Source: Astropecten irregularis (Eukaryota > Echinodermata > Asteroidea > Paxillosida > Astropectinidae). From it: DNA of 64,000 nucleotides. This document shows, one piece after another, positions 1-64,000 of the stretch; within the stretch, counting starts at the first letter, position 1, and each line of letters begins with the position of its first letter. The notes under the pieces were generated by a model, which worked only from the letters and a program-made list of their open reading frames with translations, made no database searches and had not been told where the DNA came from. The stretch is taken from assembly GCA_963971285.1 (NCBI GenBank), contig OZ020248.1, forward strand, positions 14,818,001 through 14,882,000, in the 5' to 3' direction. The position numbers were made by a program, and so were the translations under genes.

Positions 1-199
1 CAACATTAACCTACATACACCGAAGCAGAGATTAAAGCCGAACTTGAATGCGTGTGCATGTATGGATGCGTGCACAGTGAGCACAAGGTTGACGGATGAA
101 CGCTTGTCAGCAGCTAATGTTTACGGTTCGTTCTCGTTCCCGGAAGTTTGGAAATGATCTACATGTAGTACCTCTACGCTCCCTTTGAGTCGGTCATAT

Positions 200-3643: not shown

Positions 3644-4389
3644 CCTGTTCATGTATAGGCATATAGGCCTATTCAGATGATAATGTCTTCTTCTTTCACG
3701 TGTTCTTCGTGGGGTGTTTGGTTCTCAACAAATTAAAACACTTTTTTAGAACCATTTTAGTTCAAACTGATGATTAATGTTTGCTTTGCAATTATGGTTT
3801 CGGCCGCCATCTTGTGTGGTTCAAAAACATCGGGTCCTAACGATGGGGCTTTGGTGTCGAAGCGACCGCCCATGCACAATGCTATAACGGCTGTATCTCC
3901 CACTGCATCACAACCCTGCCGTTGAATGATAACACATTTGGGCATGGTTATGTTTCCGTGAACTCAGTCACGTTCTGACTGCAACTCGGCCGCGCGCATA
4001 ACATCTTTCAATCATTCAACAGTTTTCCCCCAGAATGCGGTCGGCAAAATCAGACAAGAAAGATGTTTGTCGAGCAAGCATGCAATATGCCTCAGAAGAA
4101 AGAGAATAACAAATAGCAAATGCCAAAGCAATAAAAGATGAAGTAATCATTACAGCATGTCGGGAAATGGAGACTTAGGCTTGTAAGGAAAATGCCATTA
4201 ACTAGATATAAATGGATGGACCAGGATCGGCATTGTAGTAACAGAAATGGCGGGAAAAGGCAACATTGGATACAAAATGCTTTTAGTGTATTCTACTTTA
4301 TCAGGAGGCAAAGTCACAGCTAGGGAGCACACGAACACAAAAGCGAAAATGTGAAATCGTTTTGGTAAGCGAATACGTTTAAGTCCTAT
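3644..4389. other. Unannotated intergenic stretch
   Basis: Nothing recognised; mixed-composition unique-looking DNA between two family A copies. Confidence 0.6.
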
Positions 4390-5118
4390 TTAAAGGTAGT
4401 ATCATACTTTGGTAAGAAACCAAAACAGAAATGTTTACCACATATTTACGTATAACTTACAGGGTATGAAGAATTGAGGATGGTGGTGGTAGAAACATAC
4501 CGTTACATTTTTGTTCCACCTGAAATGGTGTATTTATCCAGAAATTAGTAAAACAACGACCGAAAATCTTTTTGATCTTTTATAAAATATCAAAAATAAA
4601 AGAGAACAGACTTAAGAAATACTGTGGCCTTTTTTCACTGTTTTCTCAAGCATCGTATGGGACTGAAATGTTCACAGATGACTGTTACTGTATCTTTCTT
4701 GATATTTTTGCCCATGAATCTGAATTCTTTGACAAAAACCAAAGTATGATATTAGGCCATAAAAAAATTGTTGTATTGGAGGAACGGAGGGTTGGAAAAT
4801 AGGGTAGGGCGGGCGGATTTTTTCTTTTTTTTAATTTAATTTTTCCTGGGGTATTAAATGCTTTTTCCCCTGTATATCACAGTATTTGACGAGTCGAATA
4901 AAGACAAGAAATGACATAACAACTTTAACCAGTCTGGTTTCCATCTTTTGCTCCTTTTAAGCTTTTATTCTGCATACAAATTAGCGAATTTTTTTTTTGA
5001 TTTTTTTTTTCCCGATTTCTTTTTTTGTTTTTTGTTGGTTTAAAATGTTTACGGTCGGGGCATATTTTTGGGTCGGGCGGGTTACGCCAATACAATTTTT
5101 TTATGGCCTTACCTTTAA
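4390..5118 (+). mobile_element. TTAA MITE, family A, split by a nested element
   Basis: The left end is TTAAAGGTAGTATCATACTT at 4390. The A sequence runs to GTATGATATTA at 4754 and resumes as TTACCTTTAA at 5109-5118. The two pieces together rebuild the usual A right end GATATTACCTTTAA. The interruption is the element at 4755-5108. Confidence 0.85.
4755..5108. mobile_element. Harbinger/Tourist-like MITE nested in family A
   Basis: The 354-bp insert has ends GGCCATAAAAAAATTG and CAATTTTTTTATGGCC, with the inverted match continuing through a TGTATTGG/CCAATACA block. It is flanked by the 3-bp target duplication TTA (4752-4754 and 5109-5111). A TWA target duplication with GG-starting TIRs is typical of PIF/Harbinger elements. 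The interior has long T/A runs and no coding frame. Confidence 0.8.
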
Positions 5119-5632
5119 ATAATGGGTAGGCCGACTTCATGTGTAGATACAAGATTCTGTTCCAATACTTAAGCAGCGAAATCAGTTGATGTCAGACGTT
5201 GAAGCCTGATGAAATGTGGTTATGTTAGAGCATGCATAATGTTTTCAGAAGACGAAAGAATTAAGGAAACTAGAACATTGACAAGAGTTAGTCCGATGAC
5301 ATTTCATGGTATGAATATCTGACGATGATGGTGGTAGCTATCCTACTTAAGTTGTTCGTGAGCCAATATGTCAGTTTTATGCCACGAACCGCCGTACTGA
5401 CAAGCATTTTGCCCTAGAAATGATACAGGACAACATCAAGTAATGCACGTTTTAAATTGGTCCCCGAAATAATTTTCCATAAAAAGTCAGTCCTTTAAAC
5501 GCGTGCTCGTAATCCTTCATATTGCAGTGCGATCACGAAGGTTGCCGTTTAATGACGGGGCTTGGTCACCCGTACGGCCCCGCCGTACCGTCTAGTGAAA
5601 GACGCTCAATCACGCCCGTAGCCATTCACAAT

Positions 5633-47455: not shown

Positions 47456-49987
47456 ATTAGCGCGGTTTATAGCATAGGCCTAATGTCTTTATTTAGATCA
47501 AGGACGTGCATTTTGACAAGTGGCTGATAAATTGATACCATCCAAGGATCTGTTCATAAAATGTAATTTAGACACGACACTGCGGTACATGTATAAGCAG
47601 TCTAACACAGTCGATCCTGTAATTACATTTCCACCAGGCCGTAGTACAAAGCACCGCAGAAAGTGATACATTGTTCAGGCAATCGCCAATGATGGCCAAC
47701 CGAGTAATTGCAGCGAACCACGGCATGTTGGGGATGGAGTTACTCGGTCCCCTAGCAATCAACATAATCAACATAATGCCATTTCACTGGGTTGTGGAAG
47801 GGAAAGGAGTGTAGTTTTTCTGTGGCGTAAGCCATCGGGGTGCATGGACTGTTATACACCGAGGGGGCTCTTGACAAACGACTTAGGCTCCGGCTCGGAC
47901 TTGTACACTTCATCGAGTATAAAAAGCCGAAAGTACAAGCCGTGATTTTCTTTTTGGCTAAGGGTTAATGTTCCTTCTATTAATTAATATAACTGCAGAG
48001 CATTTGCTTTGAAACCGTAGCCATACTTCTCTTTTGATACCTGCCACTTTCAAACGATGTTTTGAAAAAATGGCCTGATCGTTTATCAGGCCTCATTACA
48101 CGAACGGTAAGAACGGGGTTTCACGAAGGCGGGTACTTTTGGTTTATACGATCGGTGAAAAAGCAGCAGTGAACAGACGGTCTGATCCGCGCTTTCTGCC
48201 CCACGGGACTGAGAGGAAGAACCACTTTTATTCGCTTGATTTTTCCGTCGGAATCTGGAGGGGGAAATTTAGGGTTCGAGTGTGATGACTTGCAAGCTGA
48301 TCGCGAACTATAACAGCCATGTCCTCTAAAAAGCCTGCTCCAACGAACAATTGAGACTCTGGCGTTTAAAGCTAAAACGAGCCAGTGATCGATAGAGCGG
48401 GCTTGCCGGTCCAGCCCCGGCGGCAGGATCCTCGTCAGACACGGTGGTTGTAATATCGGTCGACGGGAGGACAGGACACACGGGTGGCGAGAACGCGATG
48501 ACATCGGATCAATTGACTTTATATCCCCAATTCCTATAGTTCTCGATAGGATCGGAGAGATTCGGCGAGGAATCAGTGGGGAGTTCGGTTCAAGTGTCGT
48601 GTGGAGATTTCACACCACGGTGCATTGGCGATGACCTTTTGGGTAGCTATCACCCACGAACTCTGCCCAATGGTCTCTGTGAGATCTCTGAAGAAGACGG
48701 AATATGTTTTGGCGCGTGTGCCATTAAGTGGAGTGCCCTAGATGTAATAAAAAGAGCCGCCTGGAGATTTAAGGCCACACACAGAAGAAAATTGAATTGG
48801 TTTGTAAATTTAAAAAATCCTCACGGACGAGACACCACAAGCCATCTTCCTTGTTCACGCGCATATGTATGTCTTGCCACTGCGTGATGTTTTTTTTTTA
48901 GAAAATGTAATAAATAGCGTGATGCGTGAAGACATCTTCAGGCCAATACTACAATTTGTTGCGTGAAAAGATTGAGTACAACGTGTAATCCTTTAGTTAT
49001 AAAAAGCAAATCGAAGCAAAACCTGTAATATTCCCTTCTTTAAAATTGAAATTTGAAAAGTAGCTTGTTGGGTTTGGGGAGGAGATCATTCATTCTCAAA
49101 AATACGTAGCACAAAACAATCTACTGAAAATTTGGTCTTTTTTAATCTTAAATGGCGGTTACATTTTTGTCATAATGTATAGAAATGTGTTTAACTTCTT
49201 TCTTCTTTTTTTTTTACATCTGAATCAGCTAGCTAGATCCACTTCACGTGTTCAAAATCACATCAAATTCTTTGAAAAACAAGAACATTTTAGAAGGAAA
49301 TATTTCATAGAAATATTGGTTCTGGTATAAAGCCTTCACACCGAAACAATGATTTGATCCTTGCTAATTTTGTGTACTAACTTCAAATTAAGTTATTTCT
49401 TCAATGAGCTATGAATGTTGTCTTTGATGAAAAAGAACACGTGAGTTTAGCTCGTTCTATATTGTAATTGTCAGAATGTGTCCAGGTCAGGAGTGTGAAA
49501 ATAAAATACTTAGTAGTATATGTCCGTCCGTCCGTTTGTGATGTCTTTCTGTCCGTGTCATGATTTGAAGCCCCGGCCCCTCCCTTTCACGAATAAAATA
49601 AAGGGTGAACAAAAAGAAAATTGCCAATTTGGTATACAGGTTGAACTTTCCATGCATAGGGCGATATTCTTAGGGTCGACAATAGTAATTGTATACACAA
49701 TCATGTATCTAAAAGTGCAACTTTTGGTTTTGTACCTTTTGTCAAACAATGGCGTGTATATTGAACAGTGTTGAGTCCTTGGCATCAAGTAGGGCATCAA
49801 AATGCAGCTTAAGATGTGCTCTAAACAGTCATACTACTCATATTACCCCACACCTATTAGATTTAAAGGGTTAAGGCGTCAAAATCAACGGAAGTTTCTT
49901 TTAGTGCACGTTTGTGGATCGGTTTGAGGAAACACCATGTGAGAATCGTTCGAACTTACGCACTTTTCGTCGCACTTCTCGTTTAAG
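47456..49987. other. Unannotated intergenic stretch
   Basis: A patch at 48120-48890 has higher GC and open frames on both strands (127 codons minus, 103 codons plus). Neither shows a domain or an obvious splice context. Nothing else recognised. Confidence 0.55.
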
Positions 49988-50037
49988 GTCTCAAGCTCAA
50001 CGTTTCGACTCGTCTGCTCTAGTCATCATCAGGAGAC
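49988..50037 (-). ncRNA. Hammerhead ribozyme-like motif (Penelope-like element type)
   Basis: On the minus strand a 50-base segment reads GTCTC, CTGATGA, a stem-II segment, GAAAC, a short linker, then GAGAC. CTGATGA and GAAA are the two conserved strands of the hammerhead catalytic core. Stem I is GTCTC/GAGAC (5 bp perfect) and stem II is GACT/AGTC (4 bp with a large loop). The segment between GAAA and stem I is short and does not make a convincing stem III; an unstable stem III is known for hammerheads in the terminal repeats of Penelope-like retroelements, which are thought to act as dimers. No reverse-transcriptase frame is visible nearby, so this is probably a solo or truncated terminal repeat. 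Self-cleavage is an inference. Confidence 0.6.
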
Positions 50038-51154
50038 GATAAGAATAATATGATTATGTTTTTAAAAGTGTAAAATTTACACATTACAACCATTGACCAA
50101 TCACTTCCAAGTGGTTTCGTAATGTTCGGAATTGAGCTCTCTCATTGGTCATTTAAATGTGACACGTGACCGTTCGAAATCAGATGTACATTGTGATTGG
50201 TCAGATTGGATAAATTTCACTTTCACGTACTGAGATGAGAGGAAAATAAAAAACAAATTGAAAGAAACTTTTTTCAAAAGGGCCTTTGTTCAAAAATACG
50301 CGCTGCAAGCAAGCAATACCATAATTAATTTGACATATTCAAAACCTCCAAAAGTATACGCGATCGATATAGCGTACATAGAGCTCATGTACACTGAGCC
50401 TGTGCTGAGGTACTGTTCTTGTCAGTGATCGTGTTTTCCTGTACCAGGTCCGTGTATTTGTCACGTCAATGTCCTTGCTACGGTGTCCTCGAGTCTCCCA
50501 TCCAGGGAATAATTATCATTAAAAACAAAAAGGAATTCAATTGAATCCACCGCTCGACTACGTTGTTCTCTCCGTATTCGACGACAATGCCCAAACACAG
50601 CAGGCGTTTAAATACACACGACTGGTGTCACATACAACCTTCCGTAGTGTTAGTTAAGTGCCGCCCTTTACACAACCGATGCAGTTTGTAGTGTTCAGAT
50701 TTGAGAGACGGGATTTTCGGGGTCAAAGGTCGGCTGTAAATTCTTTCCTTAAGAGAGTATAGAAATTTCATATAACAAAATCAATAGATTGTGTTGTAGT
50801 TTCCGTGATAGTACTAAACAAATTGGCGCAATGATGTACTTGGAAGTGACAGATGTTTAGAATTATGACTGAACTGTTCTTCGTACTTTTGTTTTTCGTC
50901 TGCAGCTAAAGAACTTGAGTCAAACTGCACAGAATTTGATAAAAGGAAACTGAAAACATTTTCGAGGGCTTAACGACGCCTAGCTTCAACAATCAAACAT
51001 TGCAACAACCGTCTTCCACAGGTAGGACATTTTATTAAAATTCATTAAATTTTCAAAATTGATACAATTTTTCTTTGTTTCCTTGCCAAAATGGTGCGCA
51101 TTTTTTCAAGGAATAACGTAACACTGAACAGCGTACATGAAAGTTGAGTTATAA
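50038..51154. other. Flank of ribozyme motif with CCAAT-type words
   Basis: GACCAATCA (50095), CATTGGTCA (50143) and GATTGGTCA (50196) lie 60-165 bp from the hammerhead core. They could belong to the promoter part of the same retroelement terminal repeat. The remainder is unannotated. Confidence 0.35.
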
Positions 51155-52865: not shown

Positions 52866-52939
52866 TAGCTCATGTGGGATTCGAACCCACGACCTTCTGC
52901 TTACTAGTGCAGATGCCATACCGCTAGGCCACCGAGCTA
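52866..52939 (-). tRNA. tRNA-Thr(AGT)-like gene, pseudogene or SINE head
   Basis: A 74-base cloverleaf can be drawn. The acceptor is TAGCTCG/TGAGCTA (6 Watson-Crick pairs plus one G-U). A-box TGGCCTAGCGG and B-box GGTTCGAATCC are close to consensus. The T arm is perfect (GTGGG/CCCAC). The anticodon stem TCTGC/GCAGA closes an 8-base loop ACTAGTAA rather than 7, which would place AGT (Thr) in the centre if one base is extra. A run of four T lies about 8 bases past the 3' end and could terminate Pol III. The odd loop and T-A first pair argue for a pseudogene or the head of a SINE whose body could extend to about 52798. Confidence 0.5.
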
Positions 52940-63072: not shown

Positions 63073-64000
63073 TTATGCGATAGCTATGGCTTGTCCTTCC
63101 ATTTGTACTTTGAGAAGTTCACCGTTCCGTGGGAAGGTGGACTCTGACACGGCTGAGGTGACAGCCGTTGCCGTCAGGGGGTACTGATTGTGGGCCCCGG
63201 ATATATTATCGTCATCCCCCTCGTCATTGCGGAGCCGAAACCGGCCGCCTTTCTTGTTGGGCTTGCCCCGGCCCCCGCTCTTGCCGAATTTCCACCGGCT
63301 GGCCTGGGAGGCCATGCTCATGTCCGACTGGCCGTCTCCCTCGCAACACCAGGCCTTCTGGAAACTCTTGCGGAAGTTGTCGCTCAGGAAGGCGTAGAGG
63401 AGAGGGTTGGCGCAGCTGTTGATGTAGCTCAGGCCCAGGCACATCTCCGTGACGATCCAGGCGCTGCGCCAAGTGCGAAAGTCGGCCCAGAAAGCCCACA
63501 AGTACCTGCATATGTAAAATGGCCACCAGCAGATGACGAAGGTGACCACCACGATCAAGACCAGGCGGTTGACCTTGCGAGACTTCTCGGGCTTGCCCGT
63601 CTTCTTGTTCATGTCCCGCAGGCGGAGCACGATGTTGGCGTAGCAGCCGATGATGATGGTCAGGGGCAAGGCGAAGGCAACCACCGAGAAGTAGACGATG
63701 AGATACCGGGACATAGTCAGGACCTTGTCGGGCTCGAAGGTCATGTAACAGGAGGCACTGTCTTCGTCCTCGTGGTACTGTGTAAAGTGAGGGATGGGGA
63801 TGGAGCCCAAGATGGACAGGACCCAGATGGAGGCGTTTATGGCGGTAGCCACCCGGAGGTTCCGGAAGGAGCGGGACTTCATGGCGTGGCAGACGGCCAC
63901 GTAGCGGTCCACGCTCATGGCCGTCAGGCAGAACACGCTGATGAACATGTTGATGCCGTCAACGCCGAACACCAGCTTGCACATGAAAGGCCCGAAGATC
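63073..64000 (-). CDS. Somatostatin-type class A GPCR (3' part, 5' end beyond window)
   Basis: This frame encodes the part of a seven-transmembrane receptor from the end of extracellular loop 1 to the C-terminus. It is open to the window edge: five codons (I-F-G-P-F) precede the first in-frame Met at 63984, so that Met is internal. Numbering from it, TM3 spans about 2-25 with Cys2 and Asp9 in a VDGIN motif, the amine-contacting Asp of somatostatin and opioid receptors. DRY is at 26-28. Cys79 in loop 2 should pair with Cys2. TM4 is about 47-65 and TM5 about 93-121. CWWPF of TM6 is at 152-156. NSCANPLLY of TM7 (189-197) is the classic somatostatin-receptor signature. Helix 8 (FRKSFQK) is followed by a Cys pair at 213-214 that may be palmitoylated, then a basic and acidic tail. 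No intron interrupts the visible 928 bases. Such receptors sit in the plasma membrane and usually couple to Gi/o. Allatostatin-C or opioid-like receptors are the alternatives; class A identity is near certain. Confidence 0.9.
   Translation of the reverse strand, partial: IFGPFMCKLVFGVDGINMFISVFCLTAMSVDRYVAVCHAMKSRSFRNLRVATAINASIWVLSILGSIPIPHFTQYHEDEDSASCYMTFEPDKVLTMSRYLIVYFSVVAFALPLTIIIGCYANIVLRLRDMNKKTGKPEKSRKVNRLVLIVVVTFVICWWPFYICRYLWAFWADFRTWRSAWIVTEMCLGLSYINSCANPLLYAFLSDNFRKSFQKAWCCEGDGQSDMSMASQASRWKFGKSGGRGKPNKKGGRFRLRNDEGDDDNISGAHNQYPLTATAVTSAVSESTFPRNGELLKVQMEGQAIAIA

Follow-up and report, generated by a model that had tools for sequence, protein, structure and literature searches.

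The window analysed here is a stretch of 64,000 nucleotides from Astropecten irregularis (C11:14818001-14882000), and it was compared with the whole genome of this animal (475.7 Mb, 168 contigs). Its minus strand carries a hammerhead-like motif that reads, from 50037 to 49988, GTCTC CTGATGA T GACTAG AGCAGA CGAGTC GAAAC GTT GAGC TT GAGAC and lies within a copy of the terminal repeat (pLTR) of a Penelope-like element (PLE; Table 1). A first-pass annotation made from the sequence alone had noted CTGATGA and GAAAC on this strand, and both are present. Elsewhere in the window, the minus strand contains a rhodopsin-like G-protein-coupled receptor exon at 63150-63957 (7tm_1, 147 bits) and a tRNA-like match at 52866-52938 (50.2 bits), whose anticodon was not settled by ARAGORN.

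Table 1. Features of the window copy (window positions) and of the related motif in the L064 family (positions in L064).
Feature	Position	Strand	Basis
PLE terminal-repeat copy, from hammerhead to short tail-less 3′ end	49910..50040	-	blastn to sister copies
Stem I 5′ strand GTCTC; also commonest 5′ end among sister copies	50033..50037	-	sequence, 5′-end census
Catalytic core strand CTGATGA	50026..50032	-	sequence, alignment, covariance model
Extra nucleotide between core and stem II: T (G, T or C in kin)	50025	-	alignments A1, A2
Stem II and loop GACTAG-AGCAGA-CGAGTC, with A.G mismatch	50007..50024	-	sequence, covariance model, covariation in kin
GACT strand; AGTC partner	50024-50021; 50010-50007	-	stem II, sequence
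Core strand GAAAC	50002..50006	-	sequence, alignment, covariance model
GTT, putative remainder of palindromic stem III (ACGT)	49999..50001	-	hammerhead layout
Predicted cleavage position	after T 49999	-	hammerhead layout
6-nt duplication TTGAGC, window copy only, displaces stem I	49995..50000	-	absent in 35/35 other copies
Displaced stem I 3′ strand GAGAC	49988..49992	-	sequence, alignment
ATGGTGTTTCCTCAAACCGATCC..., possible ORF start of next unit; copies end here	49910..49938	-	3′-end census
L064 hammerhead-like motif, palindromic ACGCGU stem III	427-477 and 3694-3744		

A scan of the 64-kb window for CTGANGA...GAAA returned 13 rows, and both stems were found in this one only. In 100 first-order Markov windows, a core with a stem II of at least 4 bp occurred on average 0.2 times per window and a core with both stems 0.0 times. 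The Rfam hammerhead models, with which the first-pass annotation had proposed to search, detected nothing in the window and, up to E 10, nothing in 49700-50300; they also gave no match at 20 sister-copy loci (E limit 5), in 20 PLE 3′ flanks or in the related family L064. By the Rfam models the motif therefore stays below threshold, an outcome that the annotation itself had named as speaking against it. Two further such outcomes, a lack of genomic copies and an unconserved core, did not arise, as alignment of the genomic copies revealed many of them with a conserved core. Because the Rfam models miss these motifs, a family-specific covariance model was built from an alignment of close kin (A2), which contains no letters of the window; the window copy, L064, L079 and L080 (lengths differ) as well as L086 were left out. 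This model matched the window motif with 54.1 bits (E 4.1e-11), its sole match in the 64 kb up to E 10; the model being made from close kin, this E-value does not independently prove a hammerhead. For L064, L079 and L080, whose motifs were recognised through pattern searches and visual inspection, it gave no match up to E 1.

The independent part of the hammerhead evidence is the set of compensatory changes in stem II between PLE families. They were analysed in 19 motifs (16 distinct) drawn from a number of these families. Stem II occurs in the forms GACTAG/CTAGTC, GGCCAG/CTGGCC and GAACAG/CTGTTC; changes on both sides were counted in 10 cells vs 2.5 in whole-structure shuffles (0 of 500 as high), and pairing was lost when the partner strand was slid. 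The number of stem II pairs with changes on both sides was 3, which was equalled by 95 of the 500 shuffles, and we judge that the stem II changes represent two or three independent events. Stem I had no compensatory change in the 16 distinct rows, 8 of which lack its outer pair.

The window copy has retained all hammerhead core letters and has been damaged around them. The 5-bp stem I had been described as perfect: the letters GTCTC/GAGAC are there, the correct spacing is not. Through the duplication of TTGAGC, the distance of GAGAC from the predicted cleavage site is 6 nt too great, and the stem I pairing left beside this site is CTC/GAG, 3 bp. The arrangement GAAACG-TTGAGC-TTGAGAC was read in the window copy alone among the 36 copies of the first alignment; GAAACGTTGAGAC is exact in 31 of the other 35, with other point changes in 4. 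Stem II contains the annotated 4 bp GACT/AGTC, followed by the A.G mismatch and 1 bp, compared with 6 bp in the majority sequence of the sister copies, and is set off from the core by one nucleotide; stems I and II of the window copy thus do not sit directly on the core as in a hammerhead. In its minimum-energy fold neither GTCTC/GAGAC nor GACT/AGTC was paired, whereas the folds of three sister copies paired GTCTC with GAGAC and GACTAG with CTAGTC or a variant, plus pairs across the core. These four single-copy folds were little better than shuffles (z -0.1 to -1.3). A strictly intact motif, the extra nucleotide being allowed, was present in 24 of the 39 copies of the first set (window included, L099 dropped), and the window copy is not among the 24. 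Its self-cleavage, held possible by the first-pass annotation, is accordingly doubtful, and the copy is probably inert.

For the detection of further copies, the genome was searched with 49900-50230, giving 54 listed matches, with 40 scored of 1741 candidates. At the best 40 places (self excluded), blastn identity to sister copies was 82-86%. All non-self matches start at query base 185 or later, i.e. at about 50046 or further on, and the window copy aligns to L062 and L034 at 50040-49913 and 50040-49910, its end lying near 49910. For the 220 bases upstream (50041-50260), a search that skips very common words gave 1 candidate, a single genomic place. Both observations place the beginning of the copy at about 50040, and the CCAAT words, previously regarded as possible promoter parts of the element, therefore fall outside it, in the DNA with one genomic place. 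The interpretation as a solo, truncated terminal repeat is supported by the genomic copies and their alignment.

An exact 35-nt hammerhead pattern occurred 716 times in the genome (351 forward, 365 reverse; reversed control 0). The majority layout of the 36 first-search copies is GTCTC, CTGATGA, (G/T)GACTAG-loop-CTAGTC, GAAAC, GTT^GAGAC, and the core letters CUGANGA and GAAA were found by pattern in 33 of them, window included. In a second set, derived from a different query, the motif was strictly intact in 12 of 33 rows, two of which are duplicates. Identity was 94.8% in the hammerhead vs 92.9% and 90.1% in its flanks (31 copies), so that it is barely better kept; L060, a duplicate of L041, was dropped from this comparison and from the target-site test below. 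The assignment to Penelope-type hammerheads with a very short stem III holds: of stem III there is almost none, a palindromic, loopless ACGU for which pairing is possible only in a dimer. A natural candidate array for cleavage as a dimer lies at C1:3251208-3251948, where exact hammerhead words of the window family follow one another six times in direct tandem, 54-326 nt apart.

Copies next to a Penelope-type RT/GIY-YIG gene, which the first-pass annotation had recommended looking for, were found, sister copies lying directly downstream of PLE coding sequence. On the minus strand of L053 (C15), a partial inverted repeat, a C-terminal RT piece (recognised by eye, with a tblastn E of just 0.05), a GIY-YIG piece (Pfam 26.4 bits vs cut-off 22.6), a stop codon in stem II, the hammerhead and a tail follow one another. 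The frame crosses the stretch upstream of the motif and ends with ...SFQPSPDED-stop, the stop being the TAG in stem II (...TCT CCT GAT GAG GAC TAG). Therefore, TATATAAG and CCAAT upstream of the sister copies, which had been considered as a non-coding promoter, were rejected as such, L053 showing the coding 3′ end of the ORF there. In a longer sister, L069 (C27), RT motifs identified by eye are followed by GIY-YIG and then by the hammerhead. By position, ORF and copy have the same order and strand at C8:35182334/35182905, C22:15612268/15612641 and C20:8490862/8490449, and are on opposite strands at C20:8248038/8248331. A 717-aa ORF of L068 matched RVT_1 with 39.7 bits and stayed below Pfam for GIY-YIG, yet aligns to the GIY-YIG region of L053 at 53%; the L064 ORF has GIY-YIG above the Pfam cut-off and RVT_1 just below. 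RT followed by GIY-YIG in one ORF was thus found in sister or related copies and not in the window, and pLTR, partial inverted pLTR and tail as further PLE traits were found in sister copies, L053 and the end census. No ORF starting at the proposed ATG was seen, and a complete start-to-end element of the window family was not among the loci read. A further GIY-YIG match lies in a 954-aa frame of L065 (C94, 24 kb contig) that resembles bacterial UvrC by eye, so that this contig may be a bacterial contaminant. L068 also has a match to U5 spliceosomal RNA at 266-385 (90.6 bits), about 360 nt upstream of its longest open frame.

Altogether, 26 PLE 3′ flanks were read (L053, L064, L066-L089), with L053, L069 and L089 picked on account of a known or expected copy. 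A sense-strand hammerhead-like motif was present in 18: fifteen are of the window type, with L053, L071, L076, L077, L086 and L089 altered in core, stem or cleavage site; L079 and L080, which belong to one family, have a different stem II and a stem I of 3 bp; L064 has an altered core. A clear motif was absent in the remaining 8 flanks, including L083 and L088 with weak family-model matches (E 0.013 and 0.1).

The ends of the copies were determined at 39 of the 40 scored places, L099 being dropped because its anchor word is mutated. Counted from the first T of TATATAAG, the 5′ ends of 21 copies, among them the window copy, lie 29-32 nt downstream, and those of 28 lie at 26-36; 11 are located further upstream and 0 further downstream, this absence being due at least in part to the start of the query at that point. 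This statistic is censored, as copies cut inside the hammerhead, where the query began, score worse. When the 5′ ends were tested with a query taken from downstream of the hammerhead, no match was returned, the query's own place included, probably because common words are skipped. Since a TATA-driven transcript would start 29-32 nt after TATATAAG, these 21 copies would be complete copies of the short RNA leader; as TATATAAG lies within the coding 3′ end, it may not be a promoter, and its promoter role is putative. The 3′ ends are located at ATG+22..36 in 22 of the 39 copies, at ATG+58..61 in 14 and elsewhere in 3. Target-site-like repeats of at least 6 nt flank 15 of 65 copies (23%), whereas shuffled flanks averaged 6.6% and reached 17% at most; the anchor was set wrongly in 4 of the 65 rows, one of which, L003, counts as a positive, and L061 as well as L033, a duplicate of L014, were left out. 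The window copy is not among the 15 positives.

Minimal type I hammerheads in PLE pLTRs were reportedly described by Cervera and de la Pena in 2014 and by Luense, Weinberg and Breaker in 2017. In the accessible parts of later sources, PLE hammerheads are minimal type I motifs without helix III that may cleave as dimers and whose role is unsolved (PMC7761336, PMC6155905). The motifs studied here resemble them in having almost no stem III, many dispersed copies and a location in a terminal repeat; as is thought for the known ones, they would cleave as dimers. They differ from the published descriptions by the ORF stop in stem II and the extra nucleotide between core and stem II, either of which the original papers may describe, and the window copy differs additionally by its lost stem I spacing. 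For the Anolis Poseidon element (PAc), the accessible text of PMC11167929 describes an RT start inside the ORF start and a protein-assisted hammerhead. Like PAc, the present family has its hammerhead at the pLTR-ORF junction and genomic copies whose ends would correspond to RT start sites inside the ORF start. In contrast, the PAc hammerhead is overlapped by the ORF start, with the ATG at stem II, whereas here it is overlapped by the ORF end and the proposed ATG lies 57 nt past the predicted cut. The Penelope families of Adineta vaga, according to the part of PMC3846280 that was available, have a TATA-bearing pLTR, an inverted head-to-head partial pLTR, an optional 31-bp tail and short target-site duplications; similarly, tail-less and tailed 3′ ends differ here by about 30 nt. 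That paper makes no mention of "hammerhead". The anatomy of the window family fits both the PAc and the Adineta elements.

We consider it very probable that the window contains a 5′-truncated, tail-less, decayed solo pLTR of a Penelope-like element, formed in the following way. The ORF of the parent element, encoding RT and then GIY-YIG, ends inside the hammerhead with TAG in stem II and is followed by about 80 nt of non-coding sequence and the ATG. Reverse transcription would begin at either of two favoured positions shortly past the ATG, and would then reach the 5′ end of the RNA or break off earlier; solo copies, we infer, are short reverse transcripts from this internal start back to the RNA 5′ end. 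As ACGU without a loop cannot close stem III alone, an intact hammerhead would need a dimer, and may act as such within tandem transcripts or aided by the protein of the element. Its simplest role would be that tandem transcripts are cut at each unit.

Other origins were weighed against this. The copies could belong to a non-autonomous non-LTR retrozyme with circular RNA and its own hammerhead, mobilised in trans by a PLE, the ORF-linked copies then being mere relatives. The first-set copies are indeed mostly short solos, the six tandem words on C1 would suit such an element, and animal retrozymes with type I hammerheads are known from the accessible text of PMC7229834; the published ones, by the same text, are tandem repeats of about 150-450 bp. 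What makes a retrozyme improbable is that in sister copies the GIY-YIG coding sequence passes into the motif without a break and has its stop codon there, and that copies end at two places past the ATG and not at the cleavage site. These preferred 3′ ends, combined with variable 5′ ends, also argue against a foldback or MITE-like DNA transposon that contains the motif by accident. The many copies that form head-to-head inverted pairs, as in L004, L008, L017 and L029, would point to one; many copies are single, however, and the inverted pairs match the inverted pLTR of Penelope in the accessible part of PMC3846280, which leaves this origin extremely unlikely.

A chance likeness to a hammerhead, for which the silence of the Rfam models and the imperfect window copy could be quoted, deserves next to no credence in view of the Markov windows, none of which contained both stems, the hundreds of exact copies and the compensatory changes. 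The opposite reading, that the window copy is itself a still active or domesticated ribozyme, could invoke the complete core letters and the 3 bp of stem I that are still possible; the duplication at the junction, the mismatch in stem II and a fold with neither stem, where three sister copies pair both, make it very unlikely. Read as a decayed solo pLTR, the window copy is an unremarkable remnant of an element type already known.

One young PLE family, L064, has a 921-aa frame and identical 552-bp direct terminal repeats 3.27 kb apart. The motif in its repeats, GCCT, TTGAGAA, A GATCC tgcta GGATC, GAAACGCGTC^AGGC, has the same layout as in the window family. C3 and G8 pair in the active hammerhead fold. 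In L064, C3 is replaced by U and G8 by A, so that this pair would persist as U-A. In PAc, single mutants of C3 or G8 kill cleavage and the double mutant partly restores it, according to the accessible text of PMC11167929. A 33-nt word of the L064 motif occurred 1124 times exactly in the genome (578 + 546; reversed control 0). A degenerate motif of the L064 type also forms the unit of a 60-nt tandem satellite with 18 units in L032 (6269-7360; also at 1851-2120 and 4925-5185).

In PLE families related to that of the window, the Rfam histone 3′ stem-loop was detected above its 34-bit cut-off in 8 of 20 PLE flanks (L071, L072, L073, L074, L075, L077, L085, L087), and two weaker matches, in L068 and L070, were below it (27.0, 23.9). 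Each of these stem-loops starts within 10 nt after the hammerhead, and they occur in 10 of the 11 related-family flanks (L068, L070-L077, L085, L087), L076 being without; ATGGTG follows in L068, L070 and L075, the three inspected. None was seen in the window family, for whose flanks L086 and L089 Rfam gave no match up to E 1. A genome-wide search scored 75 stem-loops of 91,728 candidates, all above the cut-off, of which 52 are located on C18 at 15.5-15.6 Mb and 23 elsewhere. The one inspected on C18 (L119) follows a histone H1-like tail. Among 19 of the 23 dispersed stem-loops that were read, 17 are, by eye, copies of one PLE-type repeat (L100-L112, L114, L115, L117, L118), tied to PLEs by likeness to the ORF-linked flanks; the hammerhead family model matched 12 of the 19 loci at E <= 0.01, 11 of them in the sense of the stem-loop. 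In two loci, L113 and L116, a stem-loop of histone type and a purine-rich element come after protein ends that resemble each other and are not those of a histone (...GFDL stop, by eye).

With up to 44.7 bits, the dispersed PLE-type stem-loops exceed the histone copies (42.2 bits). Across 26 sequences, 25 of them distinct and the histone among them, pairing holds in 99.3% of the stem cells, and changes on both sides were counted in 14 cells vs 4.1 in shuffles (0 of 500), with the forms GGCTCT/AGAGCC, GGTTCT/AGAACC and GGTCCT/AGGACC; the number of changed pairs, 2, was equalled by 36 of 500. By eye, AAAAGAGA or a close form follows the stem-loop in all 26 rows, so that this kind of purine-rich element is common to the PLE flanks and the host histone H1-like gene. 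Two stretches comprising hammerhead and stem-loop folded better than shuffles (z -3.6, -4.4). We tentatively propose, at somewhat short of even confidence, that several related PLE families have a complete histone-type 3′ end cassette, a 6-bp stem-loop with its purine-rich element, no more than about 15 nt past the hammerhead, and use the ribozyme and the histone stem-loop/U7 pathway together. Nothing on Penelope elements linked to histone stem-loops was found in the literature searched, whose coverage was incomplete, so that novelty is unproven; a squid study counts both RNA families and, in its accessible part, does not link them (PMC6962438).

The family-level by-products, i.e. the altered core and the histone-type signal, are of more interest than the window copy. 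A single animal genome contains several PLE lineages whose hammerheads differ by compensatory changes; one PLE lineage has, in more than a thousand copies, a motif in whose core the C3/G8 pair is exchanged for U3/A8, and other lineages join a hammerhead to a histone-type 3′ end signal. If the histone-type signal is used as proposed, PLE mRNAs would lack poly(A) and would have their 3′ end, translation or S-phase timing as histones do, and read-through RNA would be the template for new PLE copies. Together, these lineages make the unsolved role of PLE hammerheads and the formation of PLE mRNA 3′ ends accessible to direct test.
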